A stretch of DNA of 20,413 bases from a virus, in IMG/VR virus record IMGVR_UViG_3300035688_000079, positions 1 to 20,413 of that record; one strand, written 5' to 3'. The notes below the pieces were generated by a model. The model did not search any database and was not told the origin of the DNA. It saw only the letters and a list, made by a program, of their open reading frames with translations. Positions 2,353 through 19,153 of this stretch are shown here, in pieces. A program made the translations under genes and the position numbers. Position 1 is the first letter of the stretch, and each line of letters opens with the position of its first letter.

Positions 2353-4664
2353 ACGGTCCCCCGCTTGCCTCTGCCCGCGTCACGGTAGAGTGTCTGAACG
2401 AGGCGTTTCTCGAGGAAGGTTTGGATTTGCTGGCCGTCCAGGTAGATGCTGATAGGTAACGTGATCGCCTGACTCGAGGGGGCTACAGGGGATCCAGTCG
2501 CGGTGGGTGCTGCCCCGGCAACTGCTGTCCCTCCAGTTTGCATAGTGGAAAGGATGCCAGTGGGACCTGAGAATCCTTGGGCGAACTCTCCCTGGAGGGC
2601 AGCCATGCCGGCGTGTGTTTGCGCGACCATCTCAGCCATCATGTCCGGCCAGATAGAATGATGCGTTAGGCTATTCCAGAGGTTTGTTGCAGCCTGGGCG
2701 ATGGCGCTCATCGCACCCTGCACGAGGTCCCCTAACGTGCTCATGGCTGACGCGGCGGCATTCTGCATGTCACTCCACGCAGTGGCCAGCGCGGACTTCG
2801 CATTGGTGATGAAAGAGCTGATGGTGGATGTGATGGCAGCGAACTCAGTGTTCGCAATTTTGCCGAGATTATCGAAAGCATCACTCCAATTGCCCTGCAG
2901 AATATCCAAGCCGACTTGGAGGGCTGACGCGAGGAGTGGGCTCTGGCCTTGAACGGCGGCTATCGTCTTAGCGAGGGAATCTTCGATGCCTGCAAGGCCG
3001 TCCGACCATGAGGCTTTAACTGCCGTGATGGCTTGAGTGAAGGCGACCTGCATTTTGCCGAAGAGGCCGCCGGTTAGCGCGTTGAGTATGCCGGTTATGG
3101 CTTGCGTGGTGACCGCGAGCACCGCATCCCAGAGGTCTTGCCAGAGAGAATGCCCCACAAGCCAGTTGTAGAAGGCTTGGAAGCCGTCGGTGATCCACTT
3201 GAAGAATGCGCCGAGGGCGTTCCGTATCGCCGTCAGAATTGGGACTATGAAGTCCGCGGCGTCCTTGAAGGCCTGCGCAAACAGGTGTATGACTGGCGTT
3301 ATGACCTGGATTACAACAACGAGGCCCTTGATCACCAGGACGATGGCTTCCAGGATGGCTTGGAAGAGGTTGAAGTCGCTGCCACTGCCCGTAATAGCTT
3401 TCCATAGCTCATTGAACGCGTCCCAAAGAGGCTGCAGGGCTTGCATCAGTTGGTTGAAAGCGTCCTGCAAGGATTGGAGTGCAGGCATCAGGTCCCCCTT
3501 GACAGAGTCCCAGGCGTCGTTGAAGGATTTGACGAGGCCCGACCACACACCTTGGAAAGCGGACACGGTGCCCTGTATGCCCGGCAGCTTTCCGATCGCT
3601 GCAAAGAACCCCTCCACCGCGGGGATGGCTTTCGTGAACCCGTCAACGATCGGGAGAAGCGCTTCCAGGAGAGAGGTCAAGGCCGGTAGGAGTATGGCGC
3701 CAATCTTCTCGCCAAGCGTCGTAACCGCGTTCGCTAACCGCTCCTGGAGACCTGCGTAGGTCGTCGCCTGCGCCGCCGCGGTTCCACCGTACTGGTCGTT
3801 CACCTGGCTGAGAACGTTCGCGTAATCCATCGCCAGGGCTTTGCTGCCCTGGAAGTTGATGCCGAGGGCTCCGACAATCGTGGAGAGTTGGTCGCCGCTG
3901 ATGGCGCCGGCCTTCCACGCGGTCTCTATCTCTTTCACAATAGCCGCGTGCGTCATCATTTTCCCGCTGGCATCCGCCACGGCTAGGCCTGCGGCGGCCA
4001 TGGCATCGTCAAAGGATTTCAGTTGCGCCGTGGTGCCTGTTTCCAGGTTGACCGCCATTTCCTTAATTGCTTCCGTGCCAAGGGACGTCTGTTTGGCTAC
4101 GGTAGCGACGTCAATTCCGTACCGGACGAGTAGCATGCTGTTTCCTTGGAAGGCTTTTCCAAGCGCCGTGGCTGCGGTGCTGAGGTCGATGTGTTTGGCG
4201 GCCGCAATGTCAACGGCTGCGTTGAGTGCGTCGAGGGCTTGGCTGGTGTTCATTCCATAGGTGAGGAGGACTTGCATCGAATTGGTGAGGTTCAGATCGC
4301 TCTGGGTTGTCGATTCGCGGATTTTGTCGATGCCCGTCTGCAGTTGAAGAGCTGTCGCATCCCAGGCTGAGCCTGTGAGGTGGAGAACGCTTTGAATCCC
4401 CGTCCAAGCGGTCTGCATGTTGCCGGCGGCCGTGACGCTGTCCTGCAGGCCTTTGACTACTTCACCGATCCCTACTATGGCGGCGCCGGTTGGGCCTCCA
4501 ACCGCGAAGCCTTGGATCACTTGGCCAAGTTGCGAGAAGCCTGGGCCGAGGGTCTGCAGCTCCATGCCGATTAGGCCCATGGAAGCAGAAATCTTTCCCA
4601 TCACGCCTGAGGCTTCGTCGATGGCCTTCACAGTCATGACTATGCTGCCGATACTAACACTCAA
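2349..4664 (-). CDS. Tail tape measure protein
   Basis: At 771 residues this is the longest complete gene in the window. It is rich in Ala, long helices and hydrophobic stretches, including about 430-465 with ILEAIVLVIKGLVVVIQVI, as expected of a tape measure that sits in the tail lumen and may later enter the host membrane. The N-terminal third has the typical helix-rich pattern (VMTVKAIDEASGVMGKISAS). The C-terminus, after a Pro/Thr linker, ends LYRDAGRGKRGTV. TTG is preferred as start because GGTGG lies 6 nt upstream; an in-frame ATG nine codons later is the alternative. The gene follows the tail assembly chaperone and precedes the hub. By the usual rule of about 0.15 nm per residue, the tail would be near 115 nm. 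Confidence 0.93.
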   Translation of the reverse strand: MSVSIGSIVMTVKAIDEASGVMGKISASMGLIGMELQTLGPGFSQLGQVIQGFAVGGPTGAAIVGIGEVVKGLQDSVTAAGNMQTAWTGIQSVLHLTGSAWDATALQLQTGIDKIRESTTQSDLNLTNSMQVLLTYGMNTSQALDALNAAVDIAAAKHIDLSTAATALGKAFQGNSMLLVRYGIDVATVAKQTSLGTEAIKEMAVNLETGTTAQLKSFDDAMAAAGLAVADASGKMMTHAAIVKEIETAWKAGAISGDQLSTIVGALGINFQGSKALAMDYANVLSQVNDQYGGTAAAQATTYAGLQERLANAVTTLGEKIGAILLPALTSLLEALLPIVDGFTKAIPAVEGFFAAIGKLPGIQGTVSAFQGVWSGLVKSFNDAWDSVKGDLMPALQSLQDAFNQLMQALQPLWDAFNELWKAITGSGSDFNLFQAILEAIVLVIKGLVVVIQVITPVIHLFAQAFKDAADFIVPILTAIRNALGAFFKWITDGFQAFYNWLVGHSLWQDLWDAVLAVTTQAITGILNALTGGLFGKMQVAFTQAITAVKASWSDGLAGIEDSLAKTIAAVQGQSPLLASALQVGLDILQGNWSDAFDNLGKIANTEFAAITSTISSFITNAKSALATAWSDMQNAAASAMSTLGDLVQGAMSAIAQAATNLWNSLTHHSIWPDMMAEMVAQTHAGMAALQGEFAQGFSGPTGILSTMQTGGTAVAGAAPTATGSPVAPSSQAITLPISIYLDGQQIQTFLEKRLVQTLYRDAGRGKRGTV

Positions 4665-4733: not shown

Positions 4734-4991
4734 ATGAACGCAGAAGCATCAAAGATCGTGAAGCTAAGGGTCCTCCGGGACGAACGGTATCCCGTCTTTA
4801 CACCGTTGGATGTTGGCCACCCTCTCTACGAAAAGGGATGGGAGGTTGAAGTCGAACTCAGCGAAGAGGAGTGGAAATTTGTCCAGAAAGCGACACAAGA
4901 TTTCGACAAAGCGCAGCACATTCTGGAGCAGGCCTATGAAAAGGCGTACTCACAAAAAGCGAAAGCCTCGAAAGTTTCCTTCTATATCTGA
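4734..4991 (+). CDS. Unknown 85-residue plus-strand accessory protein
   Basis: This gene sits on the strand opposite to the tail operon, between the chaperone and the tape measure. I do not recognise the family. The N-terminal half has a beta-like pattern (KIVKLRVLRDERYPVF, then GWEVEVELSEEEWKFV). The C-terminal half is a charged helix (FDKAQHILEQAYEKAYSQKA). The composition is charged and soluble, without Cys or membrane segments. Codon usage and the absence of a competing minus-strand gene support it as real. Its isolation on the opposite strand fits a separately transcribed accessory gene. A weak AGGAAG lies about 11 nt before the ATG. Confidence 0.65.
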   Translation: MNAEASKIVKLRVLRDERYPVFTPLDVGHPLYEKGWEVEVELSEEEWKFVQKATQDFDKAQHILEQAYEKAYSQKAKASKVSFYI

Positions 4992-5019
4992 TCGAGATAG
5001 GCGAAGGCGAACTCTGACA

Positions 5020-5181
5020 CTAGCGCCTCGGATGCTGTTTCTTCCAAATCAGAAGCAGCCAGTTTCGCTGCAGGGGGGTGAGCTCATCCATGCGGTCCGT
5101 CAGCCGGTAACCGAACCCGGTAACCAGGACCTCGAGAGGGGCCGAGTACACGGACCCCTCAGCGAAAGCGCCTAAGCGCCT
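5020..5181 (-). CDS. Tail assembly chaperone C-terminal extension, reached by -1 frameshift
   Basis: This is the -1 frame reading that continues from the chaperone gene after the slippery site. It gives about 53 further residues and stops at TAG 5020-5022. The reading (SAPLEVLVTGFGYRLTDRM, then DELTPLQRNWLLLIWKKQH) has the look of the 'T' half of lambda gpGT-type proteins, in which a frameshifted minority product binds the tape measure during tail assembly. It lies between the chaperone and the tape measure, as in lambda. It has no plausible independent start near its beginning, and the frame is entered exactly at the CCCAAAA heptamer. Expression as a fusion is inferred from this conserved arrangement. 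Confidence 0.83.
   Translation of the reverse strand, partial: RRLGAFAEGSVYSAPLEVLVTGFGYRLTDRMDELTPLQRNWLLLIWKKQHPRR
5136..5160 (-). promoter_or_regulatory. RNA hairpin downstream of the frameshift site
   Basis: In the minus-strand RNA, GAGGGG and CCG pair with CGG and CCCCUC around a six-base loop, with one bulged U. This makes a nine-pair GC-rich stem. It begins 20 nt after the CCCAAAA heptamer. That is farther than the usual 5-9 nt, so a stimulatory role is possible but not certain. Confidence 0.45.
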
Positions 5182-9034: not shown

Positions 9035-10222
9035 ATGAAACATGTCGCGCTCCCTCTAATCGTTGCGCTACTCCTAACAGGCAGTGCAGTTGCTTCTACG
9101 TCGTTGCTTCCCGTCTCGGAAGCCCAACCGACCACTCTCCTGTCCGTTGACTTCACAGGAAGCACGCTCCCAGCAGGCTGGCTCCTTCAAGGATCAGCCA
9201 AATTCATCGGTGGTTTGAATTCTTCATCAGGTTTCGGAGGAATCCAACTTGTCAACAGCGACAGTGAAGAGGGTGCGGCTATCTATGGTACTCCTTTCAC
9301 CACACAGAATATCATCATAGAACTCAGCGGAATGTATACGCCAGGATGTACTTTCGAATTCTATTGTGACCACCAAGAATCGGATGACTTAGGCGTCGGA
9401 TTTTACTCTGATGGCCCATTAGCCAGTGTTGGGTCACACAATCCAGCCTCGTCCAATGGCTATTACGCCTCTTATGAGTTCTTAGGAGGCGGGAGTAATA
9501 TCCCTAGTCTGATTCATGATGGGCATAGTGTGTCGTTGGGAGGGAATCTGCCACCGTGGGGAACGAACTACCTATTTACGGATACGATGGTCACGCCGAC
9601 ATCAGTTTCCATGAACACATTAACTAGCACTAACGGCCCTTTCACACAAGCGCCTTCGATAAGTCTGACGAATATGCTAACGTACAACAACGCGACGGGA
9701 CTTGACAACTCCCATTCCACGCTTTACATAGGCGGCGCGACAGTCACAGGGTTCGTACACAATCCATGGGCCTTCATCTACGTTTACTGGTTGCGTATAT
9801 TGAGTTACTCAACATCAATCTCTAGCGAGATGTCGACCTTAATTTCTGGGACAAGCCAGACACAGACTGTTGTTGCACCCATTACTCAGTTTGTGACCCA
9901 GACTGTAACCTCAACTCAACCGCCGCTCACTCAAACACAGAGTGTTACTCAATCCATTACTCAAACTGTGACCCAAGGACAGACTACGCCAACGCCTGTA
10001 CTCAGCACGGCCGGCGCGAATAGCGTACTCTTGTACGCGGTTATCGGGGCGGTAGTAGTAGTGGCCGTCGTGTTAGTTGGGGTCTTCTTAGCACTGAGGA
10101 GCAGAGGCGACAGAGGAACTGCGAGGCCTACGTATGGCGCGGTCAAGGTTTGTCAGGTGTGTGGTAGCCCACTCTCGGGGCTTGAGCGGTTCTGCGATAG
10201 ATGTGGTGCGCCCCAGGGCTAG
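9035..10222 (+). CDS. Membrane-anchored surface protein: signal peptide, lectin-like ectodomain, Ser/Thr/Gln stalk, TM helix, zinc ribbon
   Basis: The 395-residue protein starts with a signal peptide (HVALPLIVALLLTGSAVAS). The ectodomain of about 240 residues is beta-rich and resembles a concanavalin A-like fold (opens VDFTGSTLPAGWLLQGSAKF). Residues about 276-322 form a low-complexity stalk built from TQTVTQ-like repeats. A membrane helix at about 331-354 (LLYAVIGAVVVVAVVLVGVF) is followed by Arg-rich residues and a cytoplasmic zinc ribbon with CQVCG and CDRCG. This layout is common in archaeal cell-surface proteins and unlike virion genes. It is on the strand opposite to the operon and inside the repeat-bounded cassette. 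A role in surface modification, adhesion or superinfection exclusion is inference. Confidence 0.88.
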   Translation: MKHVALPLIVALLLTGSAVASTSLLPVSEAQPTTLLSVDFTGSTLPAGWLLQGSAKFIGGLNSSSGFGGIQLVNSDSEEGAAIYGTPFTTQNIIIELSGMYTPGCTFEFYCDHQESDDLGVGFYSDGPLASVGSHNPASSNGYYASYEFLGGGSNIPSLIHDGHSVSLGGNLPPWGTNYLFTDTMVTPTSVSMNTLTSTNGPFTQAPSISLTNMLTYNNATGLDNSHSTLYIGGATVTGFVHNPWAFIYVYWLRILSYSTSISSEMSTLISGTSQTQTVVAPITQFVTQTVTSTQPPLTQTQSVTQSITQTVTQGQTTPTPVLSTAGANSVLLYAVIGAVVVVAVVLVGVFLALRSRGDRGTARPTYGAVKVCQVCGSPLSGLERFCDRCGAPQG

Positions 10223-16294: not shown

Positions 16295-16410
16295 ATCACC
16301 GACCTGAATCTTCCATCAAGATGCCAATTCGTCGACATGCCTTCGAGAATGCCGAGTCGCCATAGCCCGTTCCCAAGCCAATACTTGAAACGCAAGTAAC
16401 CCTGAATCAT
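16285..16410 (-). CDS. 41-residue ORF bridging the GtrA-like and portal genes
   Basis: The ATG overlaps the stop of the GtrA-like gene as ATGA, and the TGA stop lies 10 bases inside the portal start, so the frame exactly bridges an otherwise empty 112-bp gap. The product is basic and aromatic (YLRFKYWLGNGLWRLGILEG, then TNWHLDGRFRSVIWH). Translational coupling at both ends supports it; the composition is not that of a known family. Confidence 0.45.
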   Translation of the reverse strand: MIQGYLRFKYWLGNGLWRLGILEGMSTNWHLDGRFRSVIWH

Positions 16411-16640
16411 TTTTCGAATACCCACAGTTTGCTAAGTAGGAAGTGAACGCTACCACCGATGATGGTGGTGAGCTCATAGAATCCCAGCTCCACAGCGTTG
16501 AACCGGTAGAAGAGCACCGTCCAAAACAGGTCTGGCAGTCGGCCCTTCAATCCATAGAAGAGTACGGTGCTGATCGCAACACCAACGACGCCGCTAATAC
16601 CGAACTTCAGCAGCTGCAGGAGAACATTCTTCGCTGACAA
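16407..16640 (-). CDS. Short GtrA-like membrane protein
   Basis: The 77-residue protein has the layout of GtrA family proteins: a helix LLKFGISGVVGVAISTVLFY, a second segment (LPDLFWTVLFYRFNAVEL) and the closing signature SVHFLLSKLWVFEK. GtrA proteins (usually about 120 residues, four helices) help move lipid-linked sugars across membranes, and phages use them for serotype conversion. This copy is short, with about three hydrophobic segments, and no glycosyltransferase neighbour is present. TTG directly follows the terminase nuclease stop. Placed between terminase and portal it is an odd insert. The role, perhaps altering the host surface, is inferred. Confidence 0.68.
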   Translation of the reverse strand: MSAKNVLLQLLKFGISGVVGVAISTVLFYGLKGRLPDLFWTVLFYRFNAVELGFYELTTIIGGSVHFLLSKLWVFEK

Positions 16641-17189
16641 CTAGAACGACCTTGTGATCGGCTTGAAGCCTGGGACTGGGGGCGCCCTGGTAGCGAACAC
16701 GGCCAACGCAACCGCCCAAAAGATGTCGTCGTGGGTTCCGTCGGGGTGGGAGAATTGCATCTGGCCGGTCTTGGTTAGTTCGAATTGTTCCACGTTGAGT
16801 TCGCCGGTCAGGTTGACTTCGAACGGGTAGGTGAACAGTTCATTCTCCATGAGCTGCTTGAGGTGGCTGAGAATCTCCTGCTTCTTCGGCAGGCTTAGCA
16901 TGACACCTTCGACGTGTTTGATGCCGCCTTTCTGCATATCCTCAACGATATACTCGCCCACGCCAGTTTGGTCGACAAGGCACTTCTGCACATTGCGAAG
17001 CCTCTCAATGATCACGCGAACTGAACCAATCACGGAAGAGTAGGGGGTTTCGAGGGGCCACCGCTTGTAGTAGACCAGGTCGACCGGTTCCCGGTTCGGC
17101 TGCTTGGAGACCACGGCGATGACGCTGAAGTCGTGTCTTTTTCCGAGGTCGACTCCTAGGAAGTAGGGACCTTGCGGTTCGTTTGGCAA
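16641..17189 (-). CDS. Terminase large subunit, nuclease half
   Basis: The 182-residue protein is the RNase H-like nuclease domain of a large terminase. Metal-binding acidic residues are in FLGVDLGKRHD (Asp 14), LVDQTGVGE (Asp 73) and HDDIFWAVALAVF (Asp 154/155). It normally follows the ATPase domain in one chain, and both parts are in the same reading frame here, but about 250 bp with several stops intervene. TTG 17189 has GAGG 4 nt upstream, so it may be translated as a separate subunit. The domain cuts the DNA concatemer at the start and end of packaging. The C-terminus (PGFKPITRSF) looks complete. Confidence 0.9.
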   Translation of the reverse strand: MPNEPQGPYFLGVDLGKRHDFSVIAVVSKQPNREPVDLVYYKRWPLETPYSSVIGSVRVIIERLRNVQKCLVDQTGVGEYIVEDMQKGGIKHVEGVMLSLPKKQEILSHLKQLMENELFTYPFEVNLTGELNVEQFELTKTGQMQFSHPDGTHDDIFWAVALAVFATRAPPVPGFKPITRSF

Positions 17190-17482
17190 TTTTCCTCAGG
17201 GACCTGCAGGAGTTTGTTGAGTTTATCACTCTCAGAGGGTAGGCCGAGAACACGAATCAAGTTCCCCTCCACGGTAACGAATTGGAAGAGTTGGCACGTT
17301 TCACCGGTTCTCTCGAGAAGCGCCTTAAATCCCCGCACGGTTAGCGTCGCGTCAAACTCAACCTTGTCTTGGCGAATACGAGCCCACCAAAGACCGTCCG
17401 CCGTGTGGTAGAAAGCAACGACTTGGGCGTCATTCCCGTGATTAGAATCCGAAGAAGGAATCGGGGATGAAGGAGGCGTCAG
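17156..17482 (-). CDS. Unknown ORF inserted between the two terminase halves
   Basis: In another frame, a coding-like ORF spans the break in the terminase and overlaps both halves. From about 17420 leftward it reads DAQVVAFYHTADGLWWARIR, VEFDATLTVRGFKALLERTG and LPSESDKLNKLLQVPEEN, a plausible small alpha/beta protein. The only standard start is GTG 17338 (60 residues), which would drop the aromatic N-terminal part. CTG 17482 has AGGTG 8 nt upstream and would give 108 residues. I recognise no family: no homing-endonuclease motif (LAGLIDADG, HNH, GIY-YIG) is visible. A ribosomal frameshift from the ATPase frame is another possibility. Confidence 0.5.
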   Translation of the reverse strand: MTPPSSPIPSSDSNHGNDAQVVAFYHTADGLWWARIRQDKVEFDATLTVRGFKALLERTGETCQLFQFVTVEGNLIRVLGLPSESDKLNKLLQVPEENCQTNRKVPTS

Positions 17483-18311
17483 GGTCGATGCACCTGGTGA
17501 TTAGGTCTTGGGAGAGGAATGCAGTTTCGTCCTCGGTAAATTCAGCTTCGAACTCTCGCCGGAAACGGTCCGTGGGCATGCTGCGGCGCATCTCTTCAAT
17601 GAACTCGGGCTTCGCCAGTTTGGCTTTGACGACGTCTTCCCAGGTTATGTGGTGCTTCGAGAAGTCGGGGTTCTGTGAGAACTTGTAGAAGACCGTGTTC
17701 TTGCCCCAGGGCGTGGAACTCGTGATCAGGCTGCCGTCGGTGGTTTGAAGCATCGGGTACAGAACGTTGAAGAACATCAGCTCGTCATCGCGGAAGAACG
17801 CGGCTTCATCGCAGAGGACCTCCGCGGCGCTATAACCTCTCAAGAGTTGGGGACTGTTCGGTAACGCAACGATTCGGGACCCATTCTTGAAGCGGATGGT
17901 GGTGCGCTGAATTTTGCTGAATATCTGCCGGCGCACGGGCTTGGGGATGTTGTAAATGAAATCCTCAATCTTGTCCATCATGATCATGCTTTGCCTTAGC
18001 CCTGGGGCAACAATCAACCGGAGGGTCCCTGGGTACTGGAGGCAGCGCTGGATCATGCGGGCTGCAAGCGTAGTCGACTTGCCACTCTGCCTGGACCAGC
18101 AGACATAGATGCGCTTCGCCTCGTCTAGGAGTAACTTCACCTGGTACGGTGTCGGAAAGAATTTCAAATATACCTGGCAAAACTTCACTGCGTCCGCGAC
18201 GATTGCCATGTCAAGCGTCTGCGGGCCGGTCGGGTCGTCCGGGTGGCCGGTATCTTCTTTCCGGCGGGCCTCAGCTTCCTTTGTGAGTTTTTGCCGCCAA
18301 CCCATCCGCAT
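17442..18311 (-). CDS. Terminase large subunit, ATPase half
   Basis: The 289-residue protein is the packaging-motor ATPase. Walker A is at about 73-80 (SRQSGKST), Walker B at about 165-170 (VLCDEA) and the coupling motif at about 197-201 (TSSTP). The 'FPTPYQVKLL' adenine-binding segment lies before Walker A. It ends at TAA just after a normal interdomain sequence (AFLSQDLITRCIDPDASF), where intact terminases continue directly into the nuclease domain. ATG 18311 has AGGAG close upstream and lies 41 bp inside the small-subunit gene. The 289 plus 182 residues of the two halves add up to a normal large terminase. Confidence 0.93.
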   Translation of the reverse strand: MRMGWRQKLTKEAEARRKEDTGHPDDPTGPQTLDMAIVADAVKFCQVYLKFFPTPYQVKLLLDEAKRIYVCWSRQSGKSTTLAARMIQRCLQYPGTLRLIVAPGLRQSMIMMDKIEDFIYNIPKPVRRQIFSKIQRTTIRFKNGSRIVALPNSPQLLRGYSAAEVLCDEAAFFRDDELMFFNVLYPMLQTTDGSLITSSTPWGKNTVFYKFSQNPDFSKHHITWEDVVKAKLAKPEFIEEMRRSMPTDRFRREFEAEFTEDETAFLSQDLITRCIDPDASFIPDSFFGF

Positions 18312-18801
18312 CCGCTCCTAGTTCTTCCAGGAGGGCGCCAACGAAGGCGTCGTCCTGGTGTTTGAGGATGGCCAGTTCTGTGCGTGAGAGGCCGTTGGCA
18401 ACTCGAAGCGCCAGCAACCGTGCCTCAGCATCCTTCGCCGCGTCCTCTGTTTTGCTGTAGGCGAATGCCTCTCTGATGCCCTGCCAAACGAGGTTCTCGA
18501 GCTCGTCCCGTTTCTCGGCTCCTGGAAGCCCCGGTTCCTTCGCAGCCTTCATTGGAACCTTGGTTGGGGTTTGCCTGGCCAGTTGGGCACGGGCAATGAA
18601 CTCCTTCGTCAGCCGCGTTAGGGCTAGAAGATTGGGTACACCCGATGATTGGGTGTACCCACTTTCATACTCTTGCTTGAAGTGCTCTTTCAAGATTATG
18701 CGCAGCTGCTTTGATATTGTGTTACCATCCCTGCGAGCTTCCAGCCTAAGCGTGCCTTCATACACCTTAGGAATACGAACCTTGGGGCTACCCTTTGACA
18801 A
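18271..18801 (-). CDS. Probable small terminase / ribbon-helix-helix DNA-binding protein
   Basis: The 176-residue protein is directly upstream of the terminase ATPase and overlaps it, the position of small terminase subunits. The N-terminus (KVRIPKVYEGTLRLEARRDG, then TISKQLRIILKEHFKQEY) resembles a ribbon-helix-helix DNA-binding motif. A basic Pro/Lys linker follows, and the C-terminus is helical (RVANGLSRTELAILKHQDD, then FVGALLEELGADADG). Small terminases bind the pac or cos site and regulate the motor. The gene carries a perfect inverted repeat at codons about 48-56. TTG 18801 overlaps the end of the preceding gene by 14 bp. The terminase role rests on position and motif, not on family identity. 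Confidence 0.62.
   Translation of the reverse strand: MSKGSPKVRIPKVYEGTLRLEARRDGNTISKQLRIILKEHFKQEYESGYTQSSGVPNLLALTRLTKEFIARAQLARQTPTKVPMKAAKEPGLPGAEKRDELENLVWQGIREAFAYSKTEDAAKDAEARLLALRVANGLSRTELAILKHQDDAFVGALLEELGADADGLAAKTHKGS
18634..18660. repeat. Perfect 10-bp inverted repeat inside the small terminase gene (pac candidate)
   Basis: Arms GGGTACACCC and GGGTGTACCC are separated by seven bases (GATGATT). A perfect ten-base dyad inside a coding gene is unlikely by chance. Several headful phages, such as P22, have their pac site within the small terminase gene, and a dimeric ribbon-helix-helix protein would suit a dyad. It could also be an autoregulatory operator. Confidence 0.6.
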
Positions 18802-19153
18802 CGGTCTTCTTCACCTTCATTGCGGTCTTTTCCACTTTCTTGGCTGCGACTAGGACGTTGTTGGCCACCGCGGTTGCGTACACGATGGCTGGCGCGATAA
18901 TTGTGGCCATGCCAAGCCTGGGATTCTTCGTTCGATGTGCGATCCACCAAGCTACGGCCAGGATGGCGCCCGGGACGACGGCCAGTTTCAGGAAGAATGC
19001 GATCGGGGAGAATGGGCCGCCTAGCAGCAGCACGATTGGGTTAGCTTCAATCCCTCTCCCGCTGCTGACTGCAATCCACGTGGATACGACGTCAGCCGCG
19101 TTGAGGGCGAGAAGGATGGCTGCGAGAATGATTAGAATCCCTGTTTTCTTCAT
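18788..19153 (-). CDS. DUF5658-like membrane protein
   Basis: The 121-residue protein has about four hydrophobic segments and the signature of DUF5658-like proteins: AADVVSTWIAVSSGRGIEAN followed by Pro and a hydrophobic run, i.e. a D-x(3)-T motif then G-x-EANP. The C-terminus is Lys/Val-rich (KKVEKTAMKVKKTVVKG) and would face the cytoplasm. Its ATG directly follows the TGA of the preceding gene, and its end overlaps the probable small terminase. Proteins of this type are widespread in archaea and unexplained. In a virus they may act in the host membrane. Confidence 0.7.
   Translation of the reverse strand: MKKTGILIILAAILLALNAADVVSTWIAVSSGRGIEANPIVLLLGGPFSPIAFFLKLAVVPGAILAVAWWIAHRTKNPRLGMATIIAPAIVYATAVANNVLVAAKKVEKTAMKVKKTVVKG

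Follow-up and report, generated by a model that had tools for sequence, protein, structure and literature searches.

Sequence comparison points to a large terminase naturally made as two subunits, with an orphan reading frame inserted between them, in a virus of probable bathyarchaeial hosts

Few viral proteins are as conserved as the large terminase, in which a motor and a nuclease domain normally form one chain. How, then, is a terminase made from a locus in which stop codons and a reading frame of another phase stand between the two domains? The question is raised by the 20.4-kb virus record IMGVR_UViG_3300035688_000079, whose whole stretch of 20,413 nucleotides was analysed here (the window). 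An earlier sequence-only reading had offered three options for this locus: separately translated subunits with a small inserted gene, a frameshift product, or an intron removed from the RNA. Comparison with relatives supports the first of these best, leaves frameshifting into the middle frame as a rival and speaks against the intron. In our analysis the locus probably encodes its large terminase naturally as two subunits, with an orphan open reading frame (ORF) inserted between the two genes.

Layout of the locus and identity of the terminase halves

In the window, the ATPase and nuclease ORFs lie in one common frame and are separated by several in-frame stops, and the ORF coordinates thus agree with what had been claimed for the two halves. 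The middle ORF is in the +1 frame relative to the ATPase, overlaps both terminase halves and ends with the stop TAG 17158-17156. Within the window sequence, it has no ATG, GTG or TTG upstream of a GTG at 17338. The upper limit of the range first marked for this ORF, 17482, is exactly the candidate CTG. The features of the locus are:

17442-18311, minus strand: large terminase ATPase subunit, 289 aa, ending ...PDSFFGF, stop TAA 17444-17442
16641-17189, minus strand: large terminase nuclease subunit, 182 aa, start TTG 17189
17156-17482, minus strand: middle ORF, orphan protein, +1 frame, 108 codons from CTG plus TAG
17191-17441, minus strand: inserted DNA of about 250 bp, absent from relatives L002, L003, L005, L080 and L087
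17491-17495, minus strand: AGGTG within the ATPase gene, resembling a Shine-Dalgarno sequence and 8 nt upstream of CTG 17482
17480-17482, minus strand: CTG, putative non-standard start of the middle ORF, with an ATG one codon later in two relatives
17442-17447, minus strand: TTC-TAA, where the ATPase frame ends, a candidate site for +1 frameshifting; every clade member has TTY-TAR here
17194-17197, minus strand: GAGG, Shine-Dalgarno-like motif of the nuclease gene, 4 nt before TTG 17189

In the PHROGs search, the ATPase half matches PHROG 7579 (E 4.8e-36) and the nuclease half PHROG 5909 (E 8.1e-12). The ATPase half also matches Pfam Terminase_6N (E 3.4e-13) and carries Walker A SRQSGKST and Walker B VLCDEAAF. 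The score of the nuclease half against Pfam Terminase_6C falls below the Pfam cut-off; this half carries the RNase H-like motifs GVDLG, VDQTG and THDD, and the homologous part of relative L003 matches the solved phage TerL nuclease domains 5tge and 5m1q. The terminase gene is located close upstream of the portal protein gene. Judged by the PHROGs matches, both halves are genuine terminase parts. The locus is like TerL of tailed viruses (Terminase_6 / PHROG 2 and 7579) in its Walker motifs, its RNase H-like motifs and its portal neighbour, but TerL of those viruses is one polypeptide, whereas the window virus would have two with an extra ORF between them. As far as sequence can tell, its two domains do not share a polypeptide, given the stops between them, the separate TTG and the clade-wide split.

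Three further genes of the window were recorded. Directly after the nuclease stop, a TTG opens a small membrane-type ORF with a sub-threshold GtrA match (16407-16640, minus strand). A DUF5658 protein (18788-19153, minus strand, E 8e-10) is encoded two genes upstream of the ATPase gene. In a window that is otherwise mostly minus-strand, a long plus-strand ORF (9035-10222) probably encodes a protein that is secreted or membrane-bound, and its C-terminus gives a weak zinc-ribbon match.

Age and conservation of the split

Relatives were gathered by IMG/VR scans with both halves and by species-genome scans, which together yielded more than a hundred related loci. In this family terL is mostly intact and in a single frame. 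Seven other contigs have the arrangement of the window (L002, L003, L004, L005, L010, L080 and L087), L003 and L005 being near-identical. In every member of this group, ...FGF closes the ATPase at GGN-TTY-TAR, with the following coding sequence in the +1 frame. A tree built with the seven distinct sequences, the window included and L005 left out, places them in one clade with 99% SH-aLRT support and with L088/L089 as intact sisters. Searching the viral contigs for the junction pattern recovered exactly these clade contigs and no additional ones, and a looser pattern gave two chance-like matches in genomes and nothing else. A more distant contig, L023, has another +1 split (4740-5080) with an extra stop within the nuclease; this copy may be erroneous or decaying. 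A residue pattern, GFN, at the L082/L083 junction had hinted at an exact fusion; this idea was dropped, as the nearest intact sisters L088/L089 lack the pattern.

Five of the contigs, representing four distinct sequences (L002, L003, L005, L080 and L087), have no comparable insert and yet are split. The nuclease comes almost immediately after the ATPase stop, in the +1 frame, in L003, L005, L080 and L087, and after a few extra codons in L002. L010 has a short, different extension of about 31 codons between ATPase and nuclease. Only L004 carries the same insert as the window, at 95% amino acid identity. In the window virus and L004 the inserted segment of about 85 codons is placed directly after the ATPase stop. 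Since the insert-free relatives are also split, comparison of the sequences makes the split ancestral to the clade, inherited and older than the insert, which was added later at the ATPase stop. This order of events runs counter to the cause first implied, that the insert had split terL. In addition, we found no relative whose intact terminase includes the middle segment in frame.

Pairs of clade members have low dN and high or saturated dS on both sides of the split, which argues that neither half is decaying. By this measure purifying selection acts on both halves, while their synonymous sites reach saturation. As for the host, the species-genome scan gave matches in Bathyarchaeota metagenome-assembled genomes (MAGs), and matches occur in 104 of 256 genomes from the class of one such MAG. 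These matches suggest that the host of the window virus is probably in Bathyarchaeia.

Routes to the nuclease and to the +1 frame

Immediately ahead of the nuclease TTG, L004 carries 10 bases more than the window and yet retains the TTG. Its middle ORF is in the nuclease frame and ends with TGA immediately before the TTG; the middle ORF of the window overlaps the TTG in another frame. Because the TTG is kept despite a 10-nt indel that changes the relative frame, a fusion of the nuclease with the middle ORF is not expected; that the TTG survives the indel, together with the GAGG 4 nt upstream in the window, argues for separate nuclease initiation. We consider it likely that the nuclease of the window virus is initiated separately at TTG 17189 behind GAGG. 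Of the 17 minus-strand genes of the window, seven apparently start with TTG. Readthrough of a stop, and a -1 shift that would carry ribosomes from the middle ORF into the nuclease, were both rejected, as the same join would need different mechanisms in the window and in L004.

We favour, as the probable reading, a split terminase made as separate polypeptides from overlapping cistrons: the ATPase, a small orphan protein and the nuclease. As the comparison shows, a +1 shift in the linker separated the ATPase and nuclease frames in the clade ancestor. Ribosomes would enter the +1 frame by internal initiation at CTG or ATG behind AGGTG, within the 3' end of the ATPase gene. After the later insertion in the window virus and L004, the +1 ORF would yield the orphan protein, with a putative function of its own, and the nuclease would start anew at its TTG, a step for which support is good. 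The ATPase and the nuclease would meet on the portal through non-covalent contacts, and there package and cut the DNA. Against separate subunits, a +1 frameshift product in the insert-free relatives would have a linker of normal length, and a fused product is possible there.

For the +1 ORF being reached by internal initiation at CTG/ATG behind AGGTG we would give about an even chance, ahead of frameshifting, which we hold only tentatively. In 7/7 clade sequences a +1-frame CTG or ATG lies 12-13 codons before the junction, with (A/C)GGTG 8-11 nt upstream. GGTG is found upstream of five of the 17 gene starts in the window, against a background of 4.4%. No other Shine-Dalgarno-like motif is more frequent than GGTG upstream of these 17 minus-strand starts. 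Six of the seven clade sequences obtain the CTG from a CCT Pro codon, although CCT makes up only 16% of the Pro codons in the window; the seventh sequence, L002, has ATG in place of CTG. With four well-separated lineages counted, terL codon usage alone puts the chance of CCT at about 7e-4 and that of the GGTG-forming Arg codon at 0.024, both patterns having been noticed after the fact. Spotted post hoc in about four well-separated lineages, the conservation of these codons as a start signal is suggestive. Against internal initiation, CTG is a rare start codon and is the sole candidate in most clade members, and the Pro and Arg codons also encode a conserved protein stretch. A background count of start codons in intact relatives was non-discriminating, start codons being common in both off-frames.

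The strongest rival is a +1 ribosomal frameshift at the conserved UUY-UAR. In the insert-free relatives its product would be an ATPase-nuclease fusion; in the window virus the ATPase would be fused to the middle protein, and the nuclease would be made from its own TTG. We think this somewhat unlikely, and equally so its corollary for the window virus, an orphan domain appended to the motor ATPase with the nuclease as an independent subunit. The +1 relation and the position of the shift site are conserved in 7/7 clade sequences, and the position of the ATPase stop is identical in all members despite saturated synonymous sites. The linker of the +1 product in L003, L080 and L087 is within one residue of that of most intact homologues (24 residues in the insert-free fusion vs 23 in most intact relatives). 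The +1 product of L003 matches PHROG 2 over its full length (137 bits, residues 29-455), and the ATPase-middle product of the window scores 102.8 bits. In addition, the nuclease, the L010 extension and the middle ORF all continue in the +1 frame, mostly without ATG, GTG or TTG, and +1 frameshifting in an archaeal virus has been predicted for HSTV-2 (PMC5009743). The site itself argues for frameshifting in L087, where UUU-UAG would allow re-pairing in the new frame, and against it in the other six of the seven sequences, where UUC re-pairs poorly after a +1 slip. The TTC/TTT ratio at the shift site equals background, and folding revealed no stimulatory RNA structure (z-scores -1.35 to +0.57); neither TTC frequency nor RNA folding thus gave a sign of a slippery codon or stimulatory signal under selection. 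The independent nuclease start in the window and L004 also implies that fusion is not essential there. Two other ways of decoding the junction were discarded. No tRNA, and so no suppressor or recoding tRNA, was found in the window. As for stop-codon reassignment, the site has TAA in some sequences and TAG in others, and there is a change of frame as well; decoding the stop would therefore not join the ORFs.

Less likely still is a middle ORF that arose by accident or goes untranslated, its segment being a mere spacer between two terminase genes. Such a reading would account for an ORF with no ATG/GTG/TTG start and no homologues, and only eight substitutions are available to judge it by. The codon usage of the +1 frame, however, falls inside the range of real genes: the middle ORF scores 0.36 per codon, vs 0.54 +/- 0.17 for the virus genes and -0.47 +/- 0.16 for wrong frames, and the other two frames of the insert are close to the off-frame range. 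Between the window and L004 copies of the insert there are 8 substitutions over 238 positions. By codon position of the +1 frame they fall 3/0/5, which places five of the eight at third positions and none at second; dN is 0.021 and dS 0.072. Codon usage and the copy on an independent contig at such high identity suggest that the middle ORF is more than chance, with genuine codon usage. The layout, this codon usage and the L004 copy all uphold the original description of a coding-like ORF in another frame that overlaps both halves and lacks a normal start. Homologues of the middle ORF were found neither in viral contigs beyond L004 nor, in a search run without a positive control, in 256 genomes from the class of the Bathyarchaeota MAG behind L082, and there was no match in PDB, Pfam or PHROGs. 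The AlphaFold2 model of the middle protein has a pLDDT of 56, too low for a fold search. Insertion by a homing endonuclease was rejected, as Pfam, PHROG and PDB searches found no endonuclease domain in the inserted ORF, in keeping with the earlier remark that no homing nuclease motif is visible.

The two remaining rivals are very improbable. An intron of about 250 nt (group I, group II or archaeal bulge-helix-bulge), spliced out to join the halves, would suit their common frame in the window, and self-splicing introns are known to interrupt phage terL genes (PMC11878797), but the same insert puts the halves in different frames in L004, the insert-free relatives are split in a +1 relation at the same stop codon so that close homologues offer no uninterrupted frame, and the insert is itself coding-like, matches no Rfam family and folds worse than most shuffles (z +1.38). 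A sequencing or assembly error, such as the indel that resequencing might have revealed, or a decaying pseudogene, could be suspected from sources that are single metagenomic contigs and from the further nuclease stop in L023, but the same arrangement occurs in seven further contigs (two nearly identical) from several metagenomes and forms a monophyletic clade, with dN low and dS much higher on both sides of the split; on these comparisons assembly error is excluded for practical purposes.

Parallel splits, known systems and significance

The tree and inspection of the junctions revealed terL split at the same linker in other lineages of the family. L091/L099 show an ATG inside the end of the ATPase gene; L125, L126 and L131 have a TTG preceded by GGAGG, and L101 has an ATGA overlap. 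L104 has a 977-nt insert between the terL halves. In its 3040-3960 region, a partial repeat of the ATPase-end motif lies ahead of the nuclease. A small cysteine-pair ORF occupies the terL linker of L028; this ORF (720-950) has two CxxC pairs and is in another frame, and the close relative L024 differs in sequence there. In L031, which is more distant and outside the tree, a phosphoesterase-like ORF lies between the halves and the nuclease ATG follows the inserted gene. That ORF, of roughly 300 codons (1200-2400), was recognized as calcineurin-like by eye only. By their junctions, related lineages split independently at the same linker, and ordinary starts are seen in L091/L099, L125, L126, L131, L101 and L031. 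Such parallel splits suggest that separate subunits are tolerated in this family and that insertion into the linker has recurred.

Interrupted terL genes are also known from phages with group I introns, inteins or homing endonucleases (PMC11878797, PMC3322345). Unlike those, the window has no ribozyme, intein or endonuclease signature, and its split persists in insert-free relatives and is inherited by the clade. In Streptomyces phage Hau3, translational bypassing tied to a UUA codon has been predicted in terL (PMC5009743). Both terminase genes may thus need unusual decoding, but the proposals for the window are internal initiation or a +1 shift at UUY-UAR, with a start of its own for the nuclease. 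In haloarchaeal virus HSTV-2, a +1 frameshift is predicted in the tail chaperone gene (PMC5009743, PMC8211752). Two ORFs in a +1 relation in an archaeal tailed virus recall the present case, but the gene is not terL, and frameshifting is only the rival here. In the literature searched, where subscription journals were thinly covered, we found no published terL case that matches that of the window.

These findings matter in three ways. Surveys of viruses based on terL can miscount those in which the gene is split. The locus could serve as a compact example of non-AUG internal initiation or +1 recoding in a virus of archaea. Finally, the split clade, together with the independent splits, would provide a natural test of whether packaging needs a covalent link between motor and nuclease.
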